Shown: positions 8,522 to 64,000, numbered from the stretch's first letter. The stretch: DNA of 64,000 nucleotides from Rhodospirillales bacterium (GCA_030744625.1 JASLQF010000029.1:1-64000); one strand, 5' to 3'. Translations and numbers: made by a program. The notes: generated by a model not told the origin, from the letters alone.

Positions 8522-10612
8522 CTACCCAAGCTCGACGATGATGTTGCCGCGCCCGTCGAGGGACGCCGTGGCGCCCGGCGGCACCAGGCAGGTGGTGTCG
8601 TATTCCTCGACGATGCACGGGCCGTGGTGCTGTGTCTCGAGGTCGGGGCGCGCCACCACCGGGGTCTCCAGCCACCCCTTCTCGGGGCCGAAATAGGCGT
8701 CGCGGGCGGGCGGTGGCGCGGCGCCGCGAGACCGTTCGAGGGCGAGACGTTCCGGCATGCGTGCTTGCTCCGGGATGCCCTGTCCGACGACCTGGGCGTT
8801 GACCAGCTCGACCGGCTCGTCGGCGCCGGCGCGGTGGCCGTAGGTGTGCTCGTGCTCCTCGCCGAAGGCTTCCTCGAGGGCGGCCAGCGAGGCCTGGTCG
8901 AGGACGCCGCCCGGCACCGCCACCGTGAGCTCGTATATCTGGCCCTTGTAGTGCATGTCGGCGGCGCGCCGGAATTGCATGCGTTCGGGCGGGAAGCCGT
9001 CGGCCGCCAGTTGTCGGCGCGCCGTCTCCTCGAGTTCGTCCCACACCTCGTTGAGGCGGGCCGGGTCGGCGGCGCCGAGCAGGCGCTGGATGGTACGCGA
9101 ATAGTGGTGTTCGACGTCGGCGTAAAGCAGGCCGAAGGCCGAGAACAGGCCGGCCGAGGGGGGCACCACGATGCGCTTCATGCCGAGCTCGTGCGCCATG
9201 CCGGCGGCGAACAGCGCGCCGTTGCCGCCGAAGGCGAAAAGCGTGTTGCCGCGCGGGTCGCGCCCACGCTCCGACGAGATCGCCTTGATGGCGCGGATCA
9301 TGTTGGCGATGGCGATCTGGCGGGCCCCGTAGGCGGCGTACTCAAGATCGAGGCCAAGCGGCTGGGCGATCTTGTCGGCGAACACCTGGCGGCTCCTCCC
9401 GGCGTTGAGGGAGAGCTCTCCGCCCACCAGGTACTCGGGGTTGAGGTAGCCCAGGATGATGCTGGCGTCGGTCACCGTCGGCTCGGTGCCGCCCAGGTCG
9501 TAGCACAGCGGCCCCGGATAGGCGCCGGCGCTTTCCGGGCCGATCTGCATGGAGCCGCCGGAATCGATCCACACGATGGAGCCGCCGCCGGCGCCGACCT
9601 CGGCCAGGTCGATGGCCGGCACCTTGAGCAGGTAGCCGCCGCCGGTCAGCAGGCGCGAGCCGATCATGATGCCGCCGCCGACGGAATGTTCAGACGTGCG
9701 CGTGAAGGCGCCGTTCTCGATGAGCGACGCCTTGGCCGTGGTGCCCCCCATGTCGAAGCTGATGACGTCGCGATAGCCGCTGCGGGTGGCCACGGCGTGG
9801 GCGCCGACGACACCGGCGGCGGGCCCCGATTCGACGATGTTGACGGGCTTCTGCCCCGCCTCCTCGCCGGTGGTGAGGCCGCCGTTCGATTGCATGAGCA
9901 GCAGCGGTGCTTCGATCTTGCGGTCGTCGAGTCCGGCGCGCAGGGTCTTCAGGTACTTGGAGACGACCGGCATGACGTAGGTGTTGACGACCGTCGTCGA
10001 CGTGCGCTCGTACTCCTTGATCTCGGGCAGCACGTCGTAGCTGATGCAGAACGGCAGATCGGGGGCGCGCTCGGCGATGACTTCTGCGATGAGCCGTTCG
10101 TGCGCCGGGTTGGCGTAGGAGTTGATGAGGCAGACGGCGATGGCCTCGACGCCCTCGGCGGTCAGCCTGTCGACGGCGCGTTCGGCGTCGTGGCGCTCCA
10201 GGGGCCTTTGCACGTTGCCCCCGGCGTCGATGCGCTCGTCGACGACGAGGCGCAGGTAGCGCTCGATCAGCGGCGCCGGCTTTTGCCATCTCAGGTCGTA
10301 GAGCTTCGGCATGCGCAGGTTGCGGATCTCCAGGATGTCGCGAAAACCCTTCGACGCGATGAGCCCGACGCGCGCGCCCTTGAGCTCGAGGATGGCGTTC
10401 GACGCGACGGTGGTGCCGTGCAGCACCTCGAGGATCTGTTCGCCGCCCATGCCGGTGTCGGCGAAGACCTCGGTCACACCGTCGACGATGGCTTGGGCGT
10501 AGTTGTCGACGCTCGACGATATCTTCTTGGTGAGCACCCGGCCGCCGTCGTCGAGAAAGACGATGTCGGTGAAGGTGCCGCCGATATCGACGCCGATGCG
10601 ATAGTCCGTCAT
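8522..10612 (-). CDS. hyuA: hydantoinase/oxoprolinase family, A subunit (HyuA)
   Basis: 696 residues. The N-terminus IGVDIGGTFTDIVFLDDGGRV is the ATP-binding phosphate-1 motif of the actin/hexokinase fold; HGTTVASNAILELKGARVGLI, SFDMGGTTAKASLI (phosphate-2 and Hydantoinase_A domain) and FAFGGNGALFAAGMAHELGM follow, with the usual C-terminal region ending CLVPPGATASLDGRGNIIV. The family hydrolyses cyclic amides such as 5-oxoproline or N-methylhydantoin with ATP, or carboxylates ketones. It starts 6 bases after the stop of hyuB, so the two are one operon in B-A order. The operon is transcribed away from a TetR gene with an operator-like site between them. Confidence 0.87.
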   Translation of the reverse strand: MTDYRIGVDIGGTFTDIVFLDDGGRVLTKKISSSVDNYAQAIVDGVTEVFADTGMGGEQILEVLHGTTVASNAILELKGARVGLIASKGFRDILEIRNLRMPKLYDLRWQKPAPLIERYLRLVVDERIDAGGNVQRPLERHDAERAVDRLTAEGVEAIAVCLINSYANPAHERLIAEVIAERAPDLPFCISYDVLPEIKEYERTSTTVVNTYVMPVVSKYLKTLRAGLDDRKIEAPLLLMQSNGGLTTGEEAGQKPVNIVESGPAAGVVGAHAVATRSGYRDVISFDMGGTTAKASLIENGAFTRTSEHSVGGGIMIGSRLLTGGGYLLKVPAIDLAEVGAGGGSIVWIDSGGSMQIGPESAGAYPGPLCYDLGGTEPTVTDASIILGYLNPEYLVGGELSLNAGRSRQVFADKIAQPLGLDLEYAAYGARQIAIANMIRAIKAISSERGRDPRGNTLFAFGGNGALFAAGMAHELGMKRIVVPPSAGLFSAFGLLYADVEHHYSRTIQRLLGAADPARLNEVWDELEETARRQLAADGFPPERMQFRRAADMHYKGQIYELTVAVPGGVLDQASLAALEEAFGEEHEHTYGHRAGADEPVELVNAQVVGQGIPEQARMPERLALERSRGAAPPPARDAYFGPEKGWLETPVVARPDLETQHHGPCIVEEYDTTCLVPPGATASLDGRGNIIVELG

Positions 10613-10618
10613 GGCGCA

Positions 10619-12388
10619 CTAATCCTCGCGGCTTACGAAGGGCGCCTCGGCGCCCCCTCGGGCGGTGCGCATGTCGTCGCGCAGCTTGTCCGTCGCCGCC
10701 CCGTCGACGGCCCACGTCCCGGCGTCGATCACCACGCCGTAATCAAGGCGCGCCGCCTCGACGCTTATGATCTCGTTGCGGGCATCGTTGAGCACCAGAT
10801 CGGCGTCGCGCTCCAGCGCATCTCCCCATCCGCCGCCGCCGGCAATCACGTAGCGCATCACTTCGCCCTCGTGGAAATCCATGGTCACTTTGGAGGGAAG
10901 CTTGCGGTCCTCGGTCTCCGGGTTGAAGTGGCTGGAGCCGGGCTTGCCGGGCTTGCCGCCATAGAGGCCATAGGGACGGACGACCTGGCGGTCGGCGCGT
11001 ACCTGCAGGACAGCATCCTTCTCGCCCAGGCGGTAGTCCCGGTAGAACGGCGCCCCGCCGCGGTACTTGCCGGCGCCGCAGCGGTCCCCGGCCAGCTCGT
11101 AGGCGAGAATCTCGATGGGGTGTTCGGATTCGGTCACCTCGATGGACTGCGAGGCCATGTTGATGAACAGGTTGGTATTGCCCTCGAGGCCGTCGGCCCA
11201 CGGACGGCCGCCCCACGTGCCGCAGGCGAAGTCGACATAGATGAACGGTTTGCGGTCTTTGTCGTAGCCGCCGATGGAGACGCCGACGTTGCCACCGTCG
11301 CCGGCCGCGCCGACGAGCTCGGGCGACATCCTGGCCAGGGCGCCGAAGGCGCAGTCGAGCATGCGGAACCCGGTCAGCGCCCGCGCCGCGCAGGCGCCGG
11401 GCAGGACGACGTTGGTGATGGTGCCGGGCGGCGCCGTGACGTCGATCACCCGAAAGACGCCGTCGTTGTTGGGGATAGTGCCGGGCAGGATCGAGCGCAG
11501 CGCCGTATAGGACGCCGCCTGGGTCACCGAAAGCGTGCTGTTGATGGCGCCCTTGACCTGCTTGGCGCTGCCCGTCCAGTCGAAGGACATCCTGTCGCCT
11601 TCCTTGCGCACGGTCACGAACAGGCGAATGGGCTTGCCGAACTCGACGCCGTCGTCGTCGATCCAGTCCTCGAAGCTGAACTCGCCGTCGGGGAGTTCGC
11701 TGACCGCGGCGCGGGCCAGGCGCTCGGCGTAGTCCATGACCTCGGCCATGTAGACCTTGACGGTATCGGTGCCGTAGCGCGCCACCTGCTCCAGGAACTG
11801 CTTCTCGGCGACCTCGCACGCCGCCAACTGGGCGCGCAGGTCGCCGAACAGCCGCACCGGCAGGCGCACGTTGGTCTCGATGACGGTCCACAGGGTCTCG
11901 TTGCGGGCCCCGCCTTCGATCAGCTTGAGGGGCGGCAGGCGCAGCCCTTCCTGGTAGATCTCGGTCGAATCGGCGGCGTTGGAGCCGGGCACGCGACCGC
12001 CGACGTCCCCGTGGTGGGCCGTGGTCAAGACGAAGGCGATGCGCTGCCCGTCGGCGAATACCGGCTTGATGATGAAAATGTCGGGCAGATGCATGCCGCC
12101 CGCGAAGGGGTCGTTTAGGATGAACACGTCGCCGGCGCCGATGTCGTCCCCATAGCGCGCCATGACGGCGGCGATGGCGGTGTGCATGGAGCCCAGGTGA
12201 AACGGCAGGGTCAATCCCTGCGCCACCAGCCGGCCCTCGGCGTTGGCGATGGCGGTGGCGAAGTCCATGTTGTCGCGCAGGATTCCGGAATAGGTGGTGC
12301 GGCAGATGGTCACCGCCATCTCGTCGGCGATCGAGAAAATCGCGTTCTTGAACATCTCGAACGAGATGAGGTCGTCTATTTTCGTCAC
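10619..12388 (-). CDS. hyuB: hydantoinase/oxoprolinase family, B subunit (HyuB)
   Basis: 589 residues. ISFEMFKNAIFSIADEMAVTICRTTYSGILRDNMDFATAIAN, FILNDPFAGGMHLPDIFIIKPVF and AHHGDVGGRVPGS are the signature blocks of the Hydantoinase_B/OplahB family; DYRLGEKDAVLQVRADR and a final GGGWGDALERD complete it. Start is GTG at 12388 with RBS GGGAGGA seven bases before it. The subunit forms the hydrolytic or carboxylating active site with HyuA. The promoter region contains TTGACA at 12471-12476 on this strand followed by the 12444-12463 palindrome, which suggests control by the divergent TetR protein. Confidence 0.87.
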   Translation of the reverse strand: MTKIDDLISFEMFKNAIFSIADEMAVTICRTTYSGILRDNMDFATAIANAEGRLVAQGLTLPFHLGSMHTAIAAVMARYGDDIGAGDVFILNDPFAGGMHLPDIFIIKPVFADGQRIAFVLTTAHHGDVGGRVPGSNAADSTEIYQEGLRLPPLKLIEGGARNETLWTVIETNVRLPVRLFGDLRAQLAACEVAEKQFLEQVARYGTDTVKVYMAEVMDYAERLARAAVSELPDGEFSFEDWIDDDGVEFGKPIRLFVTVRKEGDRMSFDWTGSAKQVKGAINSTLSVTQAASYTALRSILPGTIPNNDGVFRVIDVTAPPGTITNVVLPGACAARALTGFRMLDCAFGALARMSPELVGAAGDGGNVGVSIGGYDKDRKPFIYVDFACGTWGGRPWADGLEGNTNLFINMASQSIEVTESEHPIEILAYELAGDRCGAGKYRGGAPFYRDYRLGEKDAVLQVRADRQVVRPYGLYGGKPGKPGSSHFNPETEDRKLPSKVTMDFHEGEVMRYVIAGGGGWGDALERDADLVLNDARNEIISVEAARLDYGVVIDAGTWAVDGAATDKLRDDMRTARGGAEAPFVSRED

Positions 12389-12443: not shown

Positions 12444-12463
12444 AAGTAAGCATTCTCTTATTT
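12444..12463. promoter_or_regulatory. operator-like inverted repeat between hyuB and tetR (copy 1)
   Basis: AAGTAAG, six bases, CTTATTT: a 7-bp inverted repeat with one mismatch. Its reverse complement AAATAAGAGAATGCTTACTT matches the site at 15811-15830 in 16 of 20 positions. On the minus strand it begins 7 bases after a consensus -35 hexamer TTGACA (12471-12476); on the plus strand it overlaps the region upstream of a TATTAT (12481-12486). It is placed to act on both hyuBA and tetR. Confidence 0.6.
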
Positions 12464-12560
12464 CATTGCGTGTCAATAGGTATTATTCTTGGAGCGCCCG
12501 TTTGCCCGGCCCATGGAATGCCGGCGCTTGGAATGCCGGCGCAGGGAGTGATGGTGGAAA

Positions 12561-13247
12561 ATGGCAGGAAACGCCCCTCGGGACACCAACAGGCCGCGCC
12601 ACGGCAAGAAGCCGCGGCGCGAACTGTCCTTCAAGGCGCGCAACCCGGCCAAGACCAAGGAAAGAATCCTCAAGGCCGCCATCAAGGAGTTCAGTCTGCA
12701 CGGGTTCAAGGGCGCCCGCGTCGAGAAGATCGCCAAGCGGGCCAACGCCAACATGCGCATGCTGTACCACTACTTCGTCAACAAGGAGAAACTCTACGTC
12801 GCCGTCCTTGAGCACATGTACGCGCGGGTGCGTACCCAGGAACAGGAACTGGACCTCCAGCACCTGGAGCCCGAGGAAGGCATGCGCCGCCTCATCGATT
12901 TCACCTTCGAGCACTTCGTCGACAACCCGGATCTGATCAATCTGGTGATGGGCGAGAACCTGCTGCGTGCCAAGTACATCAAGCGCTCGGAACTGATCGC
13001 CGCGCTGACGCGACCGCTCCAGGAATCGCTCAGGCATCTGCTGGCGCGCGCCGCCAAGACCGGGGTGTTCAGGCCGGGCGTCGACCCGGCCCAGCTCTGG
13101 CTCACCATATTCTCGCTCTGTTGGGTGCACCTGTCCAACCGCCACACGTTGTCGTGGATGCTGCAGGACGACCTCGCCGACGCCGACTGGCTGCGCCTGC
13201 GCCGCGATCACGTCAAGGAGGTGGTCCTCGACTACCTCGCCGCCTAG
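12561..13247 (+). CDS. TetR/AcrR family regulator (RutR-like C-terminal domain)
   Basis: 228 residues. After a basic N-terminal extension, residues about 33-80 form the TetR HTH: TKERILKAAIKEFSLHGFKGARVEKIAKRANANMRMLYHYFVNKEKLY. The C-terminal part (RRLIDFTFEHFVDNPDLINLVMGENLLRAKYI, then WLTIFSLCWVHLSNRHTLSWML) resembles the ligand domain of RutR/YcdC-type regulators, whose best known member senses pyrimidine bases. It is divergent from hyuBA. The intergenic palindrome and its copy 3.3 kb away in front of the threonine synthase-like gene make it the leading candidate for controlling both operons. The ligand is unknown. Confidence 0.87.
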   Translation: MAGNAPRDTNRPRHGKKPRRELSFKARNPAKTKERILKAAIKEFSLHGFKGARVEKIAKRANANMRMLYHYFVNKEKLYVAVLEHMYARVRTQEQELDLQHLEPEEGMRRLIDFTFEHFVDNPDLINLVMGENLLRAKYIKRSELIAALTRPLQESLRHLLARAAKTGVFRPGVDPAQLWLTIFSLCWVHLSNRHTLSWMLQDDLADADWLRLRRDHVKEVVLDYLAA

Positions 13248-13285
13248 GTCACGTGCTCATGAATGACGCCTTAACTGGATGCTCT

Positions 13286-13531
13286 TTATTTTCCGGCGAT
13301 CAGCAGAGCCACGTAGGGAACGACGTTGAAGACCAGAAAGATGATTTTGTACAACCCGAGGAATGAATAAATGATCACGTCGAAGGTTTCTCGGGGAATG
13401 GGAAACAATTTGCTATGCGTTTGGTACACAAAATCCGGGGCCAAAATGAATATTGTGGCCGAGAGGACCAACAGGACTCCATTTATGATTGTACACCACT
13501 TAAAGAATGTTATTAGCGTCTGAATATCCAT
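13286..13531 (-). CDS. DUF6868-like small membrane protein
   Basis: About 81 residues from ATG 13531 (MDIQTLITFFKWC); GAGGA sits six bases upstream, so this start is better than the GTG at 13543. Two hydrophobic helices are visible, TIINGVLLVLSATIFILAPDFVY and FDVIIYSFLGLYKIIFLVFNVVPYVALLI, separated by the polar SKLFPIPRETF turn. The WCTIINGVLL...KLFPIPRETF pattern is that of the DUF6868 family, of unknown function. The gene is visibly more AT-rich than all neighbours, which may reflect recent acquisition or just its membrane-helix codons. It stands alone between tetR and the cyclase gene. Confidence 0.65.
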   Translation of the reverse strand: MDIQTLITFFKWCTIINGVLLVLSATIFILAPDFVYQTHSKLFPIPRETFDVIIYSFLGLYKIIFLVFNVVPYVALLIAGK

Positions 13532-13659
13532 GATGTTCCTCACGCCGCCATGACCGAGAAGCTTCCTGGACCGTGCATATATTATAGTACGTTGTAGCAG
13601 CCGGGTTGCGGATAAATGGCTGCCCGGGGTCGCGACCGGTCATGAGAATGACCTGGCGC

Positions 13660-15552
13660 TTAGTCCGGCAGGCCCAGGCGACGCAGGACGGCCAGACCGC
13701 TCTCGCTCGCCTCTTTGTTCCTATTGAGGCTGCTACGTCTCATATGCGTCACCGTAATCGTGGAGTCGGCGTCGACGGCCTCGGTCACCGCGGCCCGTGC
13801 CGCGTCGTCTTGCCCGAGGGTGTGGTAGGCGCGCGCCCGGCCGAGGTGGGCATGCGCGGCATGCTTACCCGACGGCTCGCGTTCCAGGAATTTCGCGAAG
13901 GCGGCAAGCGCCTCCCCGGGCTGTTCGGCATCGAGGTAGGCGAAGCCCAGTTCCTCGAGAAACCAAGCCGGATAATAGGGGCTCAGGCGCATCGCCCTCT
14001 TCATTTTGCGGATGCCTTCTTTCGGTCGGCCCGCGTTGTGGAGAAACAAGGCGAGAAGCGCCGTGATGGTGGCATGGTTGGGACTGAGGGCGACGGCCTT
14101 CTCGCCGGACGCCACGGCGGCTTCGTGTCGTCTCTGGTAAAGGTGGATGGCACCCCGCAGCGCGTGGACATCGGGCAGTTCGTCGTCCACGGCGCGCGCC
14201 TTTTCGGCCAGGAACGCGGCGCGCTCGAACGACAGAGCCGGATGATCGCTCCATCCGTACTGGGCGTCGAACCAGTGGGTCCAGGCGAGCAGGGCCCAGG
14301 CCAGGGCGTAACCGCGGTCGGCCTTGATGGCCTCGTTGAATAATTGGCGGGCCCGCGCGTTGCCCGTTTTGTCGCGGCGGTAAAAATGCTCGATTCCCCG
14401 GGCAAGTAGGTTCCAGGCCTCCAGGTTGCGTGTGTGCTTGCGGTGGACGCGCATCTGCTCGCCGTCGGTGAGCTTGATTTGCAGGGCGGTGACGATGTGC
14501 TCCGTGATTTCATCCTGCAGGTCGAACAGGTCGGTCATCTTGCGGTCGTACCGTTCGCCCCACAGGTGGTTGCCGCTCAGGGCGTCGATGAGTTGGGCGT
14601 GGATTCGCACCTTGTCGCCTGACTTCTGGATACTGCCCTCGAGCACGAAGCGGACGCCGAGGTCGGCGGCCACCTTTTGCACCTTCACCGGCTTGCCTTT
14701 GTAAGTGAAGGACGAGTTGCGGGCGATGACGAACAGGTTGGAGGCCTGTGACAGGGCCATGATGATGTTCTCGGTGATGCCGTCGCCAAGATGGTCCTGA
14801 TTCGCGTCCCGGCTCAGGTTGTCGAAGGGCAAGACGGCGATGGAGGGCTTATCCGGCAGCGGGAAGGCCATGCTCTCGATGGACGCCGGCTCGACGTCCG
14901 GGCGCGTGAACTGCCACCAGGCAACGCCGCCGGCCCCCGCCAGCAGCACCAACACGCCTACCACGGCCGCCCACCGCCGGGACGAAGACGGGGCTTCGAG
15001 CGCCGGCGCGGTCTCCGCCCTTTTCCCCAGCAGCACCCGGTAGACGCGGACAGGCGTCGACAGGTGCTTGACCGTTTGCGCGCCCATGTCCTCGATGGCC
15101 AGGCCGACGCGCTTGTGGACCTGGTCGTGGACGGCACCCGAGATGCAGATGCCGCCGGGCTCGGCAAGGGCCTCCAGCCGAGCCGCAATGTTCACCCCGT
15201 CGCCATAGATGTCCTCTTCGTCGACGGTGATATCGCCCAGGTTCACGCCCATCCGGAAGTCCATGCGCCGCTCGGTGGGAACCCCGGCGTTGCGCTTTCC
15301 AAGCTCGGTCTGGATGGTGACCGCGCACGCGACCGCGTCCAGCACGGTCGAGAACTCGGCCAGGAAACCGTCGCCCGTGTGTTTGACGATGCGCCCGCCG
15401 TGCTCGGCAATCCGCGGGTCGATGACCTCTTTGCGCGCCGACCACCAGGCTTCCAGGGTCGCCTGCTCGTCCGCCTCCATCAAGCGGGTGTAGCCAGCTA
15501 CGTCGGCGGCGAGGATCGCCGCGAGCCTGCGCTCGACCCCTTGTTCGGGCAT
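13660..15552 (-). CDS. class III adenylate/guanylate cyclase with TolB-like and TPR domains
   Basis: 630 residues from ATG 15552, chosen because AAGG lies six bases upstream and the family motif follows at once (ERRLAAILAADVAGYTRLM). Domains: cyclase, residues about 7-175, with metal Asp D17 and D61 (HTGDGFLAEF) and transition-state N121/R125 (VNIAARLE) all present; one membrane helix about 194-213; a FlgO/TolB-like domain about 235-370 (PSIAVLPFDNLSRDANQDH...HLWGERYDR); then TPR repeats to the C-terminus. Intact catalytic residues indicate a working cyclase. The helix places the cyclase in the cytoplasm and the TPR part presumably outside or in the periplasm. It is a common architecture in alphaproteobacteria; signal unknown. 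Confidence 0.87.
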   Translation of the reverse strand: MPEQGVERRLAAILAADVAGYTRLMEADEQATLEAWWSARKEVIDPRIAEHGGRIVKHTGDGFLAEFSTVLDAVACAVTIQTELGKRNAGVPTERRMDFRMGVNLGDITVDEEDIYGDGVNIAARLEALAEPGGICISGAVHDQVHKRVGLAIEDMGAQTVKHLSTPVRVYRVLLGKRAETAPALEAPSSSRRWAAVVGVLVLLAGAGGVAWWQFTRPDVEPASIESMAFPLPDKPSIAVLPFDNLSRDANQDHLGDGITENIIMALSQASNLFVIARNSSFTYKGKPVKVQKVAADLGVRFVLEGSIQKSGDKVRIHAQLIDALSGNHLWGERYDRKMTDLFDLQDEITEHIVTALQIKLTDGEQMRVHRKHTRNLEAWNLLARGIEHFYRRDKTGNARARQLFNEAIKADRGYALAWALLAWTHWFDAQYGWSDHPALSFERAAFLAEKARAVDDELPDVHALRGAIHLYQRRHEAAVASGEKAVALSPNHATITALLALFLHNAGRPKEGIRKMKRAMRLSPYYPAWFLEELGFAYLDAEQPGEALAAFAKFLEREPSGKHAAHAHLGRARAYHTLGQDDAARAAVTEAVDADSTITVTHMRRSSLNRNKEASESGLAVLRRLGLPD

Positions 15553-15795
15553 GAGAAGCCTTCCACGCAACCCAACAGGCCCGGCCCCACCTCCCGCAGG
15601 CCAGCCCACACATTGCCGGCGCTCGTGCTCTGCCGGGAGTGAGCACCCTAGGGACGCGGAGACTCGGCTACCTTGATTTGCATCAACTATTTTCCTGGGT
15701 TGAATGGAACTCGGTTGCCGTCGCAATAAGTCCAGCGGCAAGGGGATTATGCCCTTTCCGCAACCCCCAGCCCCCGTCGCTCCGCAACGAAGCGG

Positions 15796-15825
15796 TTGAC
15801 TCGCCCCCATAAGTAAGAGAATAAT
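15796..15825 (+). promoter_or_regulatory. promoter of threonine synthase-like operon
   Basis: TTGACT at 15796-15801 and AATAAT at 15820-15825 are separated by 18 bases (GAATAA one base earlier gives 17). The spacer and -10 are covered by the operator-like copy at 15811-15830. The start codon is about 50 bases downstream of the predicted transcription start. Confidence 0.5.
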
Positions 15826-15830
15826 TATTT
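15811..15830. promoter_or_regulatory. operator-like site, copy 2 of the tetR/hyu element
   Basis: AAGTAAGAGAATAATTATTT matches the reverse complement of 12444-12463 at 16 of 20 positions and has the same outer dyad (AARTAA...TTAYTT). It begins nine bases after the -35 hexamer, very similar to the spacing of copy 1 from its TTGACA. A bound repressor would cover the -10 region. Confidence 0.6.
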
Positions 15831-15880: not shown

Positions 15881-17122
15881 ATGAAAAAGATCGACCACCT
15901 GGCCTGTGTCACCTGCTCCAAGACGTACGGCGTTGACGACGTCGATTACGTCTGCCCGGACTGCGGCCTCGATCGCGGCACCCTCGACGTCATCTACGAC
16001 TACGAGGCCATCCGTCCCCGCCTCACCAGGCGCCACCTGGCCGACAGCACCGAGGCCTCGCAATGGCGCTACTGGGAGATCCTGCCCCTTTCCAGGCGCG
16101 AGCTGTGCCCCCCCTTGCGCATCGGCTGGACGCCCCTATACCGGGCCGACCGGCTGGAGCGCGAGCTCGGCCTGAAGTGCCTGTGGTTGAAGGACGACAC
16201 CGGCAATCCATCGGCGTCGCTCAAGGACCGGGCCAGCGTCATGGCCGCCGTGCGCGCCAAGGAGCTGGGCAAGGACGCGGTGGCCGGGGCGTCGACCGGG
16301 AACGCCGCGACGTCGATGGCCTGCGTCTCCGCCTACTTGGGCCTCAAGCCCTACATCTTCGTGCCCGAACGGGCGCCCAAGGCCAAGGTCGCCCAGTTGC
16401 TGGTCTATGGGGCCACGGTGATCATGGTCAGGGGAAGCTACGACCAGTGCTTCGGCCTGGCCTGGGAGGCCAGTCAAAGATGGGGCTGGTACAGCCGCAA
16501 CACGGCGGTCAATCCTTTCCTCGGCGAGGGCAAGAAGACCGCCGCCCTGGAGATCTGCGAGCAACTCGAGTGGGAGGTGCCGGACAAGGTCTTTTGCTCG
16601 GTCGGCGACGGCTGCATCTTCGGCGGCTTGCACAAGGGGTTTGTCGACTTCCACCGCCTCGGGCTGATCGACCGCGTCCCCCAGCTCATCGGCGTCCAGG
16701 CGGCGGGCGCGGCACCGTTGGTCGAGGCTTTCGAAAAGGGCTGGCCGGAAATCAAGCCGCAACAGGCCGAGACGCTCGCCGACAGCATCTGCGTCGGATA
16801 TCCGCGCGACCAGATCAAGGCCCTGCGCGCGGCGCGCCACACCGGCGGCGGCTTCATGGCGGTCACGGACGAGGAAATTCTCGCCGCCCAGCGAAGGGTG
16901 GCGCGCGCCACCGGCGTGTTCGCCGAGCCGGCGGGGGTGACCGCCATCGCCGGGGTCATTAAGATGAAGGAGGCGGGGGATCTGGATGGGGCTGAGCGGG
17001 TGGTCGCCCTGGTTACCGGACACGGCCTCAAGGACATCGATTCGGCCCTCAAGGCGGCCCAGGGCGCGCCCATCATGGTCGAGCCCGACATCGAGGACAT
17101 CGCCGCCAAGCTGGCCGCCTGA
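15881..17122 (+). CDS. threonine synthase-like PLP enzyme with N-terminal zinc ribbon
   Basis: 413 residues of fold-type II PLP enzyme. Residues C9/C12 and C25/C28 form a rubredoxin-like zinc ribbon, seen in many threonine synthases. The PLP Lys is K115 in SASLKDRAS; GASTGNAATSMA binds the cofactor phosphate/carboxylate. The family replaces the phosphate of O-phosphohomoserine with water, but paralogues have other beta- or gamma-elimination reactions. Its setting next to a second PLP enzyme and a 2-oxoacid oxidoreductase suggests a catabolic lyase yielding a 2-oxo acid rather than housekeeping ThrC. It is the first gene of the rightward operon and lies behind the copy-2 operator. Confidence 0.78.
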   Translation: MKKIDHLACVTCSKTYGVDDVDYVCPDCGLDRGTLDVIYDYEAIRPRLTRRHLADSTEASQWRYWEILPLSRRELCPPLRIGWTPLYRADRLERELGLKCLWLKDDTGNPSASLKDRASVMAAVRAKELGKDAVAGASTGNAATSMACVSAYLGLKPYIFVPERAPKAKVAQLLVYGATVIMVRGSYDQCFGLAWEASQRWGWYSRNTAVNPFLGEGKKTAALEICEQLEWEVPDKVFCSVGDGCIFGGLHKGFVDFHRLGLIDRVPQLIGVQAAGAAPLVEAFEKGWPEIKPQQAETLADSICVGYPRDQIKALRAARHTGGGFMAVTDEEILAAQRRVARATGVFAEPAGVTAIAGVIKMKEAGDLDGAERVVALVTGHGLKDIDSALKAAQGAPIMVEPDIEDIAAKLAA

Positions 17123-17151
17123 AAGCACTTTAAAGTGAGGAGACCAAGCGC

Positions 17152-18204
17152 ATGATAGAGAGACGGTCCTGGGAATCGAACCAGCGCGCCTGCCAGTCCA
17201 TGTTCGACGTCATCGGCAACACGCCGATGGTGCGCCTCAACCGAATCGCCAAAGACGTCGGCGCCGAAATCTATTGCAAGCTCGAATGGTACGGGCCCAC
17301 CGGCAGCCTCAAGGACCGCGCCTATTACAACATGATCACCGAGGCCGAGGCGCGCGGCGACCTGAAGGCCGGCATGACCATCCTGGAGTGTTCCACCGGC
17401 AACGCCGGGACGGCCTGCGCCTGGGTAGCGGCGCTCAAGGGCTACCGCTGCATCATCACCATGCCGGTCGGCATGAGCGACGAACGCAAGAAGCTCATGG
17501 AGGCCTACGGCGCCGAGCTGGTGTTCACGCCGGGCGGCGAAAGCGACGTCGACCTGGCCTTGGAGAAGGCCTTCGAGATCAGGGACCAGGACCCGGACCA
17601 ATACTGGGTACCCAACCAGTTCGACAACGATGACAACGTGCAGTCCCACTTCCTCACCACGGGCCCGGAAATCTGGGAACAGACCGAGGGCCGGGTCGAG
17701 GCCATCGTCGCCACCTCGGGCAGCGGTGGCGGCATCACCGGCATCGCCAAGTACCTCCAGGAACAGAACCCGGACGTGCAGATGTGGGCGGTCGAGCCCG
17801 AGGAATGTCCGCTCCTGTCCGAGCGCGGCTGGGGCTCCCACGGCATCGAGGGCATCGGCGACGGCCTGGTTCCCAGGAACCTCCACCTGCAGCACATGAC
17901 CGGCGTCATCACCACCCACACCGACGAGGCGGTGGAGATGGCCAAGCGCATGGCCCGCGAGGAGGGGATATTCTGCGGCATATCGTCGGGCAGTAACGTG
18001 GCGGCGGCCTTGAAGCTGGCCCGCAAGCACCCCGACATCGGCTATATCGTGTGCATGACCAACGATACCGGCCAGCGGTATTTCTCGACGGCGTTGTGCG
18101 GAGAGGCCAAACACGTCGAGATTCCGGAGCGCGACCACCCGCTGGGCGACTACACCGTGGAACAGTTGGATATCTACCAGTCCGGCTGGGAAGTAATCAA
18201 TTGA
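17152..18204 (+). CDS. cysteine synthase/cystathionine beta-synthase-like PLP enzyme
   Basis: 350 residues. FDVIGNTPMVRLNRIA opens the fold-type II catalytic domain, the PLP Lys is K54 in GPTGSLKDRAYY, STGNAGTACAWVAAL is the substrate loop and TSGSGGGITGIAKYL the phosphate-binding loop. Length and motifs fit CysK/CysM-like enzymes, with a C-terminal extension (VEIPERDHPLGDY) of about 20 residues. RBS GTGAGGAG is well spaced. It follows the threonine synthase-like gene by 29 bases. Two PLP lyases side by side suggest sequential or alternative elimination/replacement on one amino acid; the substrate cannot be named. Confidence 0.8.
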   Translation: MIERRSWESNQRACQSMFDVIGNTPMVRLNRIAKDVGAEIYCKLEWYGPTGSLKDRAYYNMITEAEARGDLKAGMTILECSTGNAGTACAWVAALKGYRCIITMPVGMSDERKKLMEAYGAELVFTPGGESDVDLALEKAFEIRDQDPDQYWVPNQFDNDDNVQSHFLTTGPEIWEQTEGRVEAIVATSGSGGGITGIAKYLQEQNPDVQMWAVEPEECPLLSERGWGSHGIEGIGDGLVPRNLHLQHMTGVITTHTDEAVEMAKRMAREEGIFCGISSGSNVAAALKLARKHPDIGYIVCMTNDTGQRYFSTALCGEAKHVEIPERDHPLGDYTVEQLDIYQSGWEVIN

Positions 18205-18250
18205 CCTGGGCGCCTCCGGTCATTGAAGAGCATAGGAAAGGAGACCAGCC

Positions 18251-19084
18251 ATGAGCACCGCGACAGCCGAGAAATTGGACAATAGCGTCGGCAAGGACGA
18301 GCTTCTCGACCTCCACCCCCGGGACCTGCGGGCGCTGGCCCGCGCCGGCAAGTGGACGGGCACCACCGAGGGCCTGGCCACGGGCTATGCCCAGGCCAAC
18401 CTGGTCATCATCCCCAAGGAGGCGGCCTTCGACTTTCTTCTGTTCTGCCTGCGCAACCCGAAGCCGTGCCCCATCGTCGAGGTCACCGATCCGGGCTCGC
18501 CGATGATCACGCAGGTGGCCGACAACGCCGACCTGCGCACCGATCTCCCCATGTACAGCGTCTATGAGAACGGCGAGCTCGTCGCCCAGCCGACCGACAT
18601 CACCGAGTACTGGCGCGACGACCTGGTGGGATTCCTTTTGGGGTGCAGCTATTCCTTCGAGACGGCGCTCCTCAACGCCAACATCCCCCTGCGCCACCAG
18701 GACGAGGACAAGATCGTCTCGATCTACACCACGGACGTGCAGTGCGCCCCGGCCGGCCGCTTCTCCGGCCCCATGGTGGTCAGCATGCGGCCCATCAAGC
18801 ACGAACAGGTGGTACGCGCCGTTCAGGTGACGTCGCGCTTCCCGGCCACCCACGGAGCGCCCGTCCACATCGGCGAACCCTCGGTCATCGGCGTCGATCT
18901 CGAAAAAACCACTTTCCAGACGGACTATGTCGGGCCCGGCGACGGCGAGGTGCCGGTGTTCTGGGGGTGCGGCTGCACGCCGCAGGCGGTGGCCCTCAAT
19001 TCGAAACTAGACTTCATGATCACCCACAAGGCCGGATACCTGTTCGTCACCGATACCCTGTCCGAGGAAATCGCCGCCCTGTAG
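18251..19084 (+). CDS. DUF1445 putative hydro-lyase (D-glutamate cyclase-related)
   Basis: 277 residues of the UPF0317/DUF1445 family. Diagnostic segments are GYAQANLVIIPKEAAFDFLLFCLRNPKPCPIVEV, PMYSVYENGEL, LVGFLLGCSYSFETALL and VFWGCGCTPQAVAL; the last carries the strictly conserved Gly-Cys-Gly-x-Thr-Pro-Gln run. Database names are 'putative hydro-lyase' or 'D-glutamate cyclase', the latter by relation to a mitochondrial protein that forms 5-oxo-D-proline; catalysis by this domain itself is not firmly established. Placement near hyuBA, whose family includes 5-oxoprolinase, is notable. RBS AAAGGAG precedes the ATG. Confidence 0.82.
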   Translation: MSTATAEKLDNSVGKDELLDLHPRDLRALARAGKWTGTTEGLATGYAQANLVIIPKEAAFDFLLFCLRNPKPCPIVEVTDPGSPMITQVADNADLRTDLPMYSVYENGELVAQPTDITEYWRDDLVGFLLGCSYSFETALLNANIPLRHQDEDKIVSIYTTDVQCAPAGRFSGPMVVSMRPIKHEQVVRAVQVTSRFPATHGAPVHIGEPSVIGVDLEKTTFQTDYVGPGDGEVPVFWGCGCTPQAVALNSKLDFMITHKAGYLFVTDTLSEEIAAL

Positions 19085-19127
19085 CCCATAAAACCCTGTA
19101 GCCCACAAGATAGAGAGAACGGATTCC

Positions 19128-20165
19128 ATGAAAGCGGCTCTTATCCACGAAAACGGCCCCCCCGAGGCGTTGAGATACGAAGACGTCGAGCCGCTTCCGG
19201 TGGGTCCGCGCGATGCGATGATCAAGGTGCGGGCAACGTCCGTGAACTGGTTCGACGTCATGGGTCGCAGCGGCGAATACTCGGCCTTCAAGAACTTCCC
19301 CCACATCCTCGGCGGCGACATCGCCGGCGAGGTGGTCGAGGTGGGCTCGGAAGTCACCAACGCCAAGCCCGGCGACCGCGTGCTGGTCTATGCCACCGTC
19401 GCCTGCGGGCAATGCGAATATTGCCTGATCGGCCAGCCCAACATCTGCCAGCACTACAAGTACTACGGGTCCGGGGTGTGGGGCGGCTACGCCCAATACT
19501 TCACGGGGCGGGCAGCCAACCTCATCCAGCTCGACGAGGGGCTCGATTTCGGCGAATGCGCCAGCATCAACGTCGCCTTCCTGACGGCGTGGCACATGCT
19601 GCAGCGGGCCGACATCCGGGCCGGAGAGGACATCCTGATCCAAGCCGCCGCCAGCGGCGTCGGCGCCGGGGCGGTTCAAATGGCCAAGCTCGCCGGGCTG
19701 CGCGTCATCGGCACCGCGGGCAGCGACGAGAAGTGCCAGTGGGCACGCGATCTCGGGGCCGACCACATGATCAACTACAGGACCCAGGATTTCCGCCACG
19801 AGGTGCGCCAGCTCACCGGCGGGCGCGGCGTCGACGTGGTCGTCGAGCACGTCGGCGCCGATGTCTGGGAGGACAGCCTGCGCTCGCTGACGCGCATGGG
19901 CCGGCTGGTCACCTGCGGCGCCTCCTCGGGGATGCAGTGTACGGCCAACGTCGCCCACATCTTCCACAAGCAACTGACCGTCATCGGTTCCAACCACGGC
20001 ACCATGAACGAACTCAGGACCATCGTCAGGCTGCTCAAGGAAGGCAAGCTGAGGGCGGTCATCGGCCAGAGGCTGCCGCTCAGGGAGGCCGCCGAATCCC
20101 ACCGCATACTCGAGGCCCGAAATATTCTGGGCAAGATCGTCCTCGAACCCGAACACGACGACTAG
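19128..20165 (+). CDS. zinc-type alcohol dehydrogenase / quinone oxidoreductase family
   Basis: 345 residues, medium-chain dehydrogenase. GroES-like N-domain with NWFDVMGRSGEY and HILGGDIAGEVVEVGSEV; structural-zinc-type Cys cluster CGQCEYCLIGQPNIC; nucleotide-binding AAASGVGAGAVQMAKLAGLRVIGTAGSDEK; C-terminal GKIVLEPEHDD. Zn-liganding Cys are present in the structural loop, while the usual catalytic Cys near residue 38-40 appears replaced by Asp (WFDVMGRSG), as in quinone-oxidoreductase-like members. It lies 43 bases behind the DUF1445 gene in the same operon. The substrate is unknown. Confidence 0.83.
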   Translation: MKAALIHENGPPEALRYEDVEPLPVGPRDAMIKVRATSVNWFDVMGRSGEYSAFKNFPHILGGDIAGEVVEVGSEVTNAKPGDRVLVYATVACGQCEYCLIGQPNICQHYKYYGSGVWGGYAQYFTGRAANLIQLDEGLDFGECASINVAFLTAWHMLQRADIRAGEDILIQAAASGVGAGAVQMAKLAGLRVIGTAGSDEKCQWARDLGADHMINYRTQDFRHEVRQLTGGRGVDVVVEHVGADVWEDSLRSLTRMGRLVTCGASSGMQCTANVAHIFHKQLTVIGSNHGTMNELRTIVRLLKEGKLRAVIGQRLPLREAAESHRILEARNILGKIVLEPEHDD

Positions 20166-20190
20166 GCCGGGCGCGCCACGGGCGTTGCCG

Positions 20191-20901
20191 ATGGAAGAGC
20201 ACATACGTATCGACAAGCGGTTCTGCGGGCCGCCGGGCAACGGGCACGGCGGCTACGTCAGCGGCGTGGTGGCGGCGAAGATCGGCGGCGGCGGTATCGG
20301 TGGGGCCGAAGTGACCCTGCGCAGCCCCGTCCCCCTGGACCGGGCGTTAAGCGTCGAGCGCCCCGAAGACGGCCGCGTCACCGTCCACGACGGCGCCACC
20401 CTCATCGCCGAGGCCACGGATGCCGAACTCGATCTCGACATCCCCGAGGCACCGACGCTTGCCCAGGCCGAGGACGCGGCACGGAGCTACTTTGGATTGG
20501 GCCAACACCCCTACCCGGATTGTTTCGCGTGCGGAGACGGGCGCGCCCCGGGGAGCGGGCTGGCCATCATGTCGGGCCCGGTTGATGGCAGCGATGTCGT
20601 GGCGGCGCCGTGGCTGCCGCACCAATCGCTGGCCGCTACTGACGGCACCGTGGGGCCGGAGTACCTGTGGGCGGCGCTCGATTGCCCGAGCGCCTGGGCG
20701 TTGTTGCGGGGCGACCACGTGCCGGTCCTGCTCGGCCGCATCACGGCCAGGGTGAAGGAGGGGCTCAAGACCGGCGCGTCGTGCATCGTCTATGCGTGGC
20801 CCATCGCCACCGATGGCCGCAAGCTCTATGGCGGATCGGCCATCGTCTCGGAGAGCGGCGAGCTATGGGGCGCCAGCCGGGCGACGTGGTTCAAGGTCTG
20901 A
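20191..20901 (+). CDS. hotdog-fold thioesterase-like protein
   Basis: 236 residues from ATG 20191; the ORF start six bases earlier is a TTG. The CGPPGNGHGGYVSGVVAAKIGG opening resembles the active-site helix of PaaI/acyl-ACP thioesterase-like hotdogs, and a second half (ALDCPSAWAL, LGRITARVKEGLKTGASCIVYAW, GSAIVSESGELWGASRATWF) looks like another hotdog, giving a tandem arrangement. A central DCFACGDGRAPGSGL could be a loop with paired Cys. It would hydrolyse an acyl-CoA produced by the following 2-oxoacid oxidoreductase. No strong RBS is seen, so it may be coupled to the upstream gene. Confidence 0.6.
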   Translation: MEEHIRIDKRFCGPPGNGHGGYVSGVVAAKIGGGGIGGAEVTLRSPVPLDRALSVERPEDGRVTVHDGATLIAEATDAELDLDIPEAPTLAQAEDAARSYFGLGQHPYPDCFACGDGRAPGSGLAIMSGPVDGSDVVAAPWLPHQSLAATDGTVGPEYLWAALDCPSAWALLRGDHVPVLLGRITARVKEGLKTGASCIVYAWPIATDGRKLYGGSAIVSESGELWGASRATWFKV

Positions 20902-20909
20902 CATCTCGT

Positions 20910-20938
20910 CGCAATGAACGGCGGGTTGCGGCTATAAT
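20910..20938 (+). promoter_or_regulatory. possible internal promoter before 2-oxoacid oxidoreductase genes
   Basis: A perfect TATAAT (20933-20938) lies 35 bases before the oxidoreductase start, in a 71-base gap that is the largest in the operon. The -35 position (CGCAAT, 17-base spacer) is poor, so this is a weak call. Confidence 0.3.
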
Positions 20939-20972
20939 TTAGGCGGTGCTCTTGCCCCGCCAGGGAATCGCC

Positions 20973-22097
20973 ATGGGATTGGAATTCATCGAGGGCAACG
21001 AAGCGATCGTGCGCGGCGCCATCAGGGCGGGATGCGGGTTTTTCGCCGGCTACCCGATCACGCCCGCTTCGACGATCCTCGAATACATGCTCCACCTGCT
21101 TCCCGCCGAGGGCGGCGTCGCCATGCAGGCCGAGGACGAAATCGCCTCCATGGGATTGTGCATCGGCGCCTCGATGGCCGGAAGGAAGGCCATGACCGCG
21201 ACCAGCGGGCCCGGCATCAGCCTGTACAGCGAAAACATCGGCCTCGCCATCATGGGCGAGACCCCGTTGGTCATCGTCAACGTCCAGCGCCAGGGGCCGG
21301 CGACGGGCTCGGCGACCAAGGGCGCCGAGGGGGACATCCAGTTCACCCGCTGGGTGACGTCGGGCGGCTTGCCGATGATCGCGCTCAGCCCCGCCACCGT
21401 GGGCGAGGCCTACGAGCTGACCTTCCGTGCCTTCAACCTGTCGGAGCAGTTCCGCGTGCCGGTGATCGTACTGTCCAACAAGGAGATCAGCCTCACCCAG
21501 GAGAGCGTCGATCTCGACGCCATCGAGCTGCCGCCGCTGGTCGAGCGACGGCGCCCCGCCGACGGGGAGAAATATCAGCCGCACCACTTCGAGACGCCGG
21601 AACAGGTTCCGGTGCTGTCGGACTTCGGCGGCGAGCACGTCACCCAATACACCACCTCGACCCATGACAAGGCCGGCTACCTCACCGCCGACCCCGGCCT
21701 GATCCAGGAGATGATCGACCATTACACGGCCAAGATCGAGGCGGCCACCGACGACATCGCTCTTTTCAGGCACGATCCGCAGGAGGACGCCGAGACCCTC
21801 GTCGTCAGCTACGGCGTCACGTCGCGGTCCGCCGCCATGGCCGTGCGGGAAGCCAGGGACAGGGGCAAGAGGGTATCGTCGCTCACCCTGCAGACCCTCT
21901 ACCCGGTGCCGGAAAGGGCCATCAAATCGGCCATCGACGGCGTCGCCAGGATCGTCGTCCCGGAAATGAACATGGGACAATACAGGTTGGAGATCGAGCG
22001 CCTGGCCCCCGATGGCGCCGAGGTCATCGGCGTCAACAAGATGAACACCACATTGATTTCGCCCGACGAAATCATCGCGGAGGGTGGATTGCTGTGA
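20973..22097 (+). CDS. 2-oxoacid:acceptor oxidoreductase, alpha subunit
   Basis: 374 residues from ATG 20973 (MGLEFIEGNEAIVRGAIRAG), preferred over the GTG 27 bases earlier because AGGGAA sits at RBS distance. It has the pyrimidine-binding domain I (GCGFFAGYPITPASTILEYM, ATSGPGISLYSENIGLAIMGE) and domain II (VVSYGVTSRSAAMAVREARDRG, VVPEMNMGQYRLEIERL). This corresponds to the alpha chain of the KorAB/PorAB type, which oxidatively decarboxylates 2-oxo acids to acyl-CoA with ferredoxin. It lacks an N-terminal gamma domain; the gamma-like part is instead at the end of the beta subunit. GTGA overlap joins it to the beta gene. Confidence 0.85.
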   Translation: MGLEFIEGNEAIVRGAIRAGCGFFAGYPITPASTILEYMLHLLPAEGGVAMQAEDEIASMGLCIGASMAGRKAMTATSGPGISLYSENIGLAIMGETPLVIVNVQRQGPATGSATKGAEGDIQFTRWVTSGGLPMIALSPATVGEAYELTFRAFNLSEQFRVPVIVLSNKEISLTQESVDLDAIELPPLVERRRPADGEKYQPHHFETPEQVPVLSDFGGEHVTQYTTSTHDKAGYLTADPGLIQEMIDHYTAKIEAATDDIALFRHDPQEDAETLVVSYGVTSRSAAMAVREARDRGKRVSSLTLQTLYPVPERAIKSAIDGVARIVVPEMNMGQYRLEIERLAPDGAEVIGVNKMNTTLISPDEIIAEGGLL

Positions 22098-23419
22098 GCA
22101 ATATGGCTTATCAGACCTACATGACCGACGAGCTCGGCCCGCTTCCCTTCTGTCCCGGTTGCGGCCACGAACGCCTGCTCAGGGAACTGGACAAGGCGCT
22201 CGTCGAACTTCAGCTAGACCCCACCAACGTCGTCATCGTCTCGGACATCGGCTGCATCGGCCTGGCCGACCGCTATTTCACCACCAACGCCTTCCATGGG
22301 CTGCACGGGCGCTCGCTGACCTACGCCACCGGCCTCAAGCTGGGCCGCCCGGAATTGACGGTGATCGTCCTCATCGGCGATGGCGGCTGCGGCATCGGCG
22401 GCGCGCACCTGTTGAACGCGGCGCGCCGCAACGTCGATCTCACCCTCGTCGTCGCCAACAACTTCAACTACGGCATGACCGGGGGGCAGCATTCCGTGAC
22501 CACGCCGAGCGGCGGACGCACGTTGACGACACCGCTCGGCAATATCGAGGGCGCCATGGACATCTGCGCCACCGCCATCGGGGCCGGCGCCACCTGGGCG
22601 TTCCGCGGCATCGGCTACGACGACGGCCTGGCCCAGCGCATCGTCGACGGCATCCGCCATCCCGGTTTCGCCCTGCTCGACATCTGGGAGCTGTGCACGG
22701 CCTACTACCTGCCGCGCAACGACTTCAACAAGAAGGAGCTCTACAACCTCATCGAAAGCACCGGCCAGGAGGTCGGCCTGCTTGCCGACAAGGAGCGCCC
22801 CGAGTTCGGCGCCGCCTACCGCCAGCGCGCCGCCGAAATTCCGAAAGGAAAGCCCCCCATCGTCATCGAGCCCGCCTTCGCCCACTCGCTGGAGCGCCAG
22901 AAAGGCATCGTCATGGCCGGTGGGGCCGGCCAGAAGGTCAAGTCGGCGGTCACCGTTTTGGCGCGGGCCGGGATGTTGTCCGGTCTCCAGGCCACCCAGA
23001 AGGACGACTATCCGATCACCATCATGACCGGCCACTCGCTATCGGAAATCAACCTGTCGCCGGACCCCATCGAGTATACGGCCATCGATTCCCCCGATTA
23101 CTTCCTGGTCATCTCCGAGGAGGGCCTCAAGAAAACGCGCTCCTGGATCAAGCGGCTGGCCCCGTCGTGCAGGCTGTACGCCGACGATGGGCTGGAGCTT
23201 CCCGACACCGAGGCGCGGGTGACCAGGCTGCCCCTGGCGCCAGCCGCCAAGGAGGTCGGGCGGCTCTCGAACGGCGTCATCGCGCTGGCCGCCATGTTGC
23301 AGGAGGCCGCCATGTTCCCCATGGACGCCTTCGAGCAGGCCATCTCCCGCTACCAGAAGCCGGAGATCGCCGAAACCAACCTCAAGGCCGTCAAGAAGGG
23401 CGTCGAACTGGTGTCCTGA
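22094..23419 (+). CDS. 2-oxoacid:acceptor oxidoreductase, fused beta-gamma subunit
   Basis: 441 residues. The first about 265 are the TPP-binding beta chain: LPFCPGCGHERLLREL, SDIGCIGLADRYF, VIVLIGDGGCGIGGAHLLNAARRNV and NNFNYGMTGGQHS. The remaining part (GIVMAGGAGQKVKSAVTVLARAGMLSGL, SEINLSPDPIEYTAID, NGVIALAAMLQEA) is a gamma-type domain, normally a separate gene or fused to alpha. No ferredoxin domain or separate ferredoxin gene is present nearby. The start GTG overlaps the alpha stop by four bases. The likely role is converting the 2-oxo acid produced by the upstream PLP enzymes to an acyl-CoA. Confidence 0.83.
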   Translation: MSNMAYQTYMTDELGPLPFCPGCGHERLLRELDKALVELQLDPTNVVIVSDIGCIGLADRYFTTNAFHGLHGRSLTYATGLKLGRPELTVIVLIGDGGCGIGGAHLLNAARRNVDLTLVVANNFNYGMTGGQHSVTTPSGGRTLTTPLGNIEGAMDICATAIGAGATWAFRGIGYDDGLAQRIVDGIRHPGFALLDIWELCTAYYLPRNDFNKKELYNLIESTGQEVGLLADKERPEFGAAYRQRAAEIPKGKPPIVIEPAFAHSLERQKGIVMAGGAGQKVKSAVTVLARAGMLSGLQATQKDDYPITIMTGHSLSEINLSPDPIEYTAIDSPDYFLVISEEGLKKTRSWIKRLAPSCRLYADDGLELPDTEARVTRLPLAPAAKEVGRLSNGVIALAAMLQEAAMFPMDAFEQAISRYQKPEIAETNLKAVKKGVELVS

Positions 23420-63985: not shown

Positions 63986-64000
63986 GACCGGGTGCCTCGC

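Follow-up and report, generated by a model that had tools for sequence, protein, structure and literature searches.

When a TetR-family regulator gene stands beside one operon, and a similar 20-bp dyad is found in the promoter of this operon and of another one nearby, does a single regulator govern both? Such a question is raised by a 64,000-nt stretch of DNA from a Rhodospirillales bacterium (GCA_030744625.1 JASLQF010000029.1:1-64000; hereafter, the window). A sequence-only reading of this locus had answered it in the affirmative, supposing that the TetR protein represses both the adjacent hyuBA genes and an operon headed by a threonine-synthase-like (thrS-like) gene, thereby uniting them in one local regulon.

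Two Dyads and the Predicted Promoters

Two 20-bp dyads are present in the window: site 1 (12444..12463, minus strand), reading AAATAAGAGAATGCTTACTT on the hyuBA-coding strand, and site 2 (15811..15830, plus strand), reading AAGTAAGAGAATAATTATTT. As had been claimed, the reverse complement of 12444-12463 is identical to 15811-15830 at 16/20 positions, and the outer dyad AARTAA...TTAYTT is found in both; site 2 is the less symmetrical one, its right arm being ATTATTT, not CTTATTT. The pattern AARTAAGAGAATNNTTAYTT with up to 3 mismatches gave exactly 2 matches in the window, at sites 1 and 2, and 0 in 100 dinucleotide-preserving shuffles. Allowing at most 1 mismatch, the two-armed dyad AARTAAN8TTAYTT occurs 2 times against 0.01 expected. 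The same tolerance for AAGTAAN8TTACTT, a consensus derived from other genomes and independent of the window, returned sites 1 and 2 only (2 observed against 0.00 expected), each of them 1 mismatch away from it.

The genes hyuB (start 12388, minus strand) and tetR (start 12561, plus strand) diverge from an intergenic stretch of 172 bp, in which site 1 is situated. A TTGACA hexamer resembling a -35 element of the predicted hyuBA promoter (12471..12476, minus strand) precedes it by 7 bp. Site 2 occupies part of the intergenic region separating the thrS-like gene from an adenylate-cyclase/TPR gene; it precedes the start codon of the former (15881) by 50 bp and begins 9 bp after TTGACT. The spacing of 7-9 bases after TTGAC[A/T] described previously thus holds for both. 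Site 2 contains half of the spacer and the -10 element of a predicted sigma-70-like promoter of the thrS-like operon, TTGACT-18-AATAAT (15796..15825, plus strand). A -10 element was recognisable for site 2 only, that of site 1 being weak.

Genes of the Two Operons

The first gene of the divergent putative target operon is hyuB (Hydantoinase_B; 10619..12388, minus strand), followed after 6 bp by hyuA (Hydantoinase_A; 8522..10612, minus strand), for which the nearest solved structures are an N-methylhydantoinase and a 5-oxoprolinase-family chain. A second hyuB/hyuA-like pair is located on the minus strand at 60240-64000, and no dyad of the AARTAA/TTAYTT type was found near it within the window.

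The second putative target operon comprises seven plus-strand genes (15881-23419) separated by gaps of at most about 50 bp. These genes code for a threonine-synthase-like PLP enzyme (15881..17122), a cysteine-synthase-like PLP enzyme (17152..18204), a D-glutamate-cyclase/putative hydro-lyase family protein (18251..19084), a zinc-type alcohol dehydrogenase/quinone-reductase-like oxidoreductase (19128..20165), an uncharacterised 238-aa protein matching no Pfam or NCBIfam model (20185..20901), the alpha subunit of a 2-oxoacid:acceptor oxidoreductase (20946..22097) and the fused beta and gamma parts of a 2-oxoacid:acceptor oxidoreductase (22094..23419). The thrS-like protein scores 208.8 against Threonine synthase TIGR00260, above the cut-off of 167.1; its true reaction is uncertain because of the catabolic setting.

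The Regulator and Its Relatives

The proposed repressor is encoded by tetR (12561..13247, plus strand). Its product carries both domains of its family, TetR_N and TetR_C_29 (PF17938), at 129.7 bits (cut-off 26.2) and 49.3 bits (cut-off 24), each above the gathering score. Next to its gene and ahead of the putative target operons, there are also 20-bp dyads of the AAGTAA-N8-TTACTT type, a trait of TetR_C_29 regulators that was derived here from relatives and is not a published definition. A confident structural model (mean pLDDT 91) places residue 65 at the start of the recognition helix (residues 65-72; NMRMLYHYF, with M65). The closest solved fold is that of RutR (4x1e; Z 20.9, 2.4 A over 194 residues, 24% identity). 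RutR is also the best NCBIfam match, at 55.0 bits against an equivalog cut-off of 368, well short of assignment to that family.

TetR relatives (about 40-56% identical) were gathered from 60 relatives, 385 genomes of the class and a scan of named genomes. Many TetR_C_29 homologues have a 20-bp dyad of the same geometry near their own tetR gene, often within about 250 bp, and two types of dyad follow the recognition helix. Regulators with an "NK" helix go with AAGTAAC-N6-GTTACTT: in 48 loci (507 kb), C..G occupied dyad positions 7/14 in 28/30 dyads, against 1 in the reversed-pattern control. Those with a hydrophobic helix N-[M/I/V/L/T], including NMRM of the window, go with AAGTAA[G/T/A]-N6-[C/A/T]TTACTT: 33 loci (387 kb) gave 22 non-C, 4 half and 0 C..G dyads (reversed-pattern control 0). 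The SK-helix loci (373 kb) yielded 0 dyads of this kind. The window agrees with the hydrophobic-helix group, combining NMRM with two non-C sites. Among relatives sharing this helix type, roughly one in two showed no clear dyad within the stretch examined.

On the tree, helix and operator types separate 33/33 and 18/18, and each changes once, at the same well-supported split. Being the outcome of a single change, the helix-operator correspondence is not replicated evidence; it identifies the operator of the clade, residue 65 being only a candidate cause of the difference.

The closest counterpart of the window sites comes from an alphaproteobacterial MAG (locus L141), where AAGTAAGTATTCTCTTACTT lies between an amidohydrolase gene and tetR. 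It is identical to each window site at 18/20 positions and has the 13 bp TATTCTCTTACTT in common with site 2; AllG and carbamate-kinase genes are found in the same locus. Another relative with the NMRM helix, L133, has three dyads. One precedes an AllG/FdrA/carbamate-kinase operon, another a gamma-glutamyltransferase gene and the third a TRAP transporter; here, too, several local operons would form one regulon, as proposed for the window. Judging from L141 and L133 together, regulators of this clade may govern several catabolic and transport operons in their vicinity, which is what the earlier reading had supposed for the window. A perfect TTGACA precedes the dyad by 8-13 bp in L111, L133 (two sites), L141 and L155.

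Some other features of these neighbourhoods may be mentioned. In L133, L141 and L111, the hydrophobic-helix TetR_C_29 genes adjoin genes for AllG-type oxamate carbamoyltransferases, with FdrA, carbamate-kinase and amidohydrolase genes also there in some of the three, which suggests that regulators of this clade control a catabolic pathway involving carbamoyl transfer. In L138, L155 and L156, a tetR of the same clade ends a cluster of molybdenum-hydroxylase (xanthine-dehydrogenase-like) and TRAP-transporter genes, and whole or partial dyads stand before the hydroxylase gene in both L155 and L138.

Sites Elsewhere in the Genome

A genome-wide motif scan had been suggested as a check. In the 3.2 Mb of this genome, which is 88% complete, so that further sites may be missing, AAGTAAN8TTACTT with at most 1 mismatch occurs at three places: sites 1 and 2 and C36:14982-15001. 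At two mismatches, the counts are those of background, with 30 matches per strand against 37 in the reversed control. The third site (L262:6983-7002 in our locus set) is on another contig, begins 8 bp after TTGACA and precedes a TRAP-transporter operon, dctP-dctQ-dctM. A composite pattern, TTGACW-N6-10-AARTRAN8TYAYTT, matches the genome exactly three times (control 0), having been loosened to take in the C36 site after that site had been seen. Going by the dyad only, a single match of this kind per genome would not be significant, because the 0.01 matches expected per window for the looser pattern at one mismatch amount to roughly 0.5 per genome. Genes for relatives of the TRAP binding protein encoded on C36 (E < 1e-26) adjoin a hydrophobic-helix tetR in 6/33 loci and in 0/80 others. 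Membership of the C36 site in the regulon is a prediction. As to the supposed local character of the regulon, the sites do precede both operons named in the earlier reading, but the regulon is probably wider, since a third site of the same architecture precedes an unlinked TRAP transporter.

One further candidate was rejected. The 20-mer AAATAAGTATCATGTCACTT, present in about ten copies, could have been taken for a large regulon of the same dyad, but proved to be part of a longer repeat that is dispersed and has inverted copies. It is found verbatim on contigs C6, C19 (three tandem copies), C27, C38, C43, C48, C65 and C69 (loci with copies: L004, L009-L011, L015, L019 and L021), with inverted near-copies about 40-60 bp away, and looks like a MITE or another dispersed repeat.

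Conservation of the Gene Pairing

Whether the site co-occurs with these genes at orthologous loci had been put forward as a further check, and for hyuAB it does not: 18 pairs of about 60-69% identity in genomes of the class have neither this tetR nor the dyad. More distant hyuAB genes (44-48%) adjoin a TetR_C_29-like gene in three genomes; a related dyad was found only in G348 (L116), the locus of G189 having a different palindrome and that of G401 no dyad. No close orthologue of the thrS-like gene was found in 317 genomes of the order, nor in the class. Operons combining thrS-like, cysK-like, D-glutamate-cyclase-like and 2-oxoacid oxidoreductase genes appear to be rare. With hyuAB loci devoid of this tetR and site, and with a thrS-like operon having no close counterpart, no relative in the sampled set, which contained no genome of the same genus or family, keeps the two-operon pair for comparison. 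As far as can be seen, the two-operon regulon and the hyuAB-tetR pairing are particular to this lineage. A description of this operator was not found in the literature.

Interpretation of the Locus

On strong comparative evidence, sites 1 and 2 are very probably operators of the neighbouring TetR_C_29 regulator. The notion of one TetR protein serving both operons stands as far as the sites are concerned, which fit the operator geometry, arms, sub-type and promoter position, but the pairing itself is not conserved. We envisage that a TetR dimer would bind the 20-bp dyad with its arms AARTAA and TTAYTT, lying across the spacer/-10 region of the hyuBA promoter in the case of site 1 and of the thrS-like promoter in the case of site 2, and that RNA polymerase would be excluded by the bound repressor. 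The repressor would be freed by some small molecule, which is probably a cyclic amide, a related nitrogen compound or else an oxo-acid made from one. Release of the repressor would allow transcription of hyuBA, of the PLP-enzyme/2-oxoacid oxidoreductase operon and of the unlinked TRAP transporter of contig C36.

In general, a TetR regulator represses its divergent neighbour when less than 200 bp lie between the two (PMC3511530). The hyuB-tetR gap, 172 bp between 12388 and 12561, falls under this rule, which predicts that hyuBA is a target repressed by TetR. A ligand-released repressor seems most likely because the divergent gap is below 200 bp and both sites cover the polymerase-binding region. 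As for the inducer, our leading guess is a cyclic amide or something formed during its breakdown, since RutR, the nearest structure, binds uracil (title of 4jyk), a cyclic amide, and since neighbours of the clade deal with nitrogen compounds (amidases, amidohydrolases, AllG and RidA-type proteins).

Other explanations of the locus have to be weighed against this one. The regulator might use site 1 alone, for autoregulation and hyuBA, with site 2 weakly bound or belonging to another regulator and the thrS-like operon left outside. The lower symmetry of site 2 and the lack of any relative keeping both operons would agree with such a scenario, yet sites 1 and 2 fit the independent consensus equally well, in a genome with only three such sites, and site 2 contains the TATTCTCTTACTT stretch of the L141 operator and covers the promoter spacer and -10; we regard site-1-only control as unlikely. 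It is about as unlikely, or slightly more so, that TetR acts as an activator or plays mixed roles at the two promoters. Some proteins of the family, such as AtrA, do activate (PMC3511530), and the sign of regulation is unreadable from sequence, but the overlap with spacer and -10 is the usual place for repression, and the short divergent gap points the same way.

That the sites are a product of chance, or of a mere resemblance between AT-rich promoters with no dedicated regulator, appears highly improbable. The genome is indeed GC-rich and the promoter elements overlapped by both sites are AT-rich, and matches with two mismatches are no more numerous than in the reversed control. Nevertheless, all three one-mismatch places in the genome have promoter position and the same -35 spacing, the window holds two where practically none is expected, and the same dyad recurs near tetR genes of relatives.

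We therefore return to the repressor released by a ligand. As a whole, the explanation comprising TetR operators, repression, ligand release and hyuBA, thrS-like and TRAP targets has, in our judgement, a good likelihood of being correct. Within it, a regulon of three operons (hyuBA, the thrS-like seven-gene operon and the TRAP transporter) is probable from the sequence comparisons, and repression, inducer and pathway are what we infer. The switch would be of an ordinary kind; the regulon would be new, and the pathway is undescribed. It is tempting, if rather speculative, to suppose more: that a RutR-like TetR sub-clade, with a hydrophobic residue for Lys at the helix start and AAGTAA[G/T]-N6 operators, governs nitrogen-compound catabolism, and that here it coordinates an ATP-dependent lactamase/hydantoinase, the rare thrS/cysK/D-Glu-cyclase/2-oxoacid-oxidoreductase operon and an unlinked TRAP importer in one undescribed degradation pathway.

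Joining two operons of obscure purpose and a distant transporter in one regulon would make the question of the substrate testable, with import, ring opening and oxo-acid oxidation as the parts of one pathway. Our analysis also provides a predicted operator consensus for a TetR_C_29 sub-clade found across Proteobacteria, and position 65 as a candidate specificity residue.

Comparison with Known Systems

RutR, the E. coli pyrimidine-utilisation repressor, acts on the rut pyrimidine operon in response to uracil and governs catabolism of a nitrogen heterocycle. Its operator, which we take to be TTGACCANNTGGTCAA, has arms different from those of the window sites, and the genes under its control also differ from those proposed for the window TetR. 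The two proteins have a fold in common, and a common fold does not show a common ligand. On the enzymatic side, hyuA and hyuB of the window code for full-length members of the superfamily of ATP-dependent caprolactamases and hydantoinases (CapAB, HyuAB). They score 554 and 290 bits against the NCBIfam caprolactamase CapAB equivalog, below its cut-off of 1000, and for this reason their substrate is left without assignment.

Parallels are also offered by TetR_C_29 regulators with AAGTAAC-N6-GTTACTT operators, clearly homologous to the window TetR, whose sites have the same 20-bp geometry and are found near tetR and before catabolic or transport genes. In these systems, however, the recognition helix contains Lys and C/G occupies dyad positions 7/14, whereas the window has Met65 and G/C or G/A. 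The regulators of L141, L133 and L111 belong to the same hydrophobic-helix clade as that of the window. Their neighbours are genes for an AllG-type carbamoyltransferase, amidohydrolase, carbamate kinase and gamma-glutamyltransferase instead of hyuAB and the thrS-like operon, but the operator type is the same, and the operator of L141 is nearly identical to those of the window.
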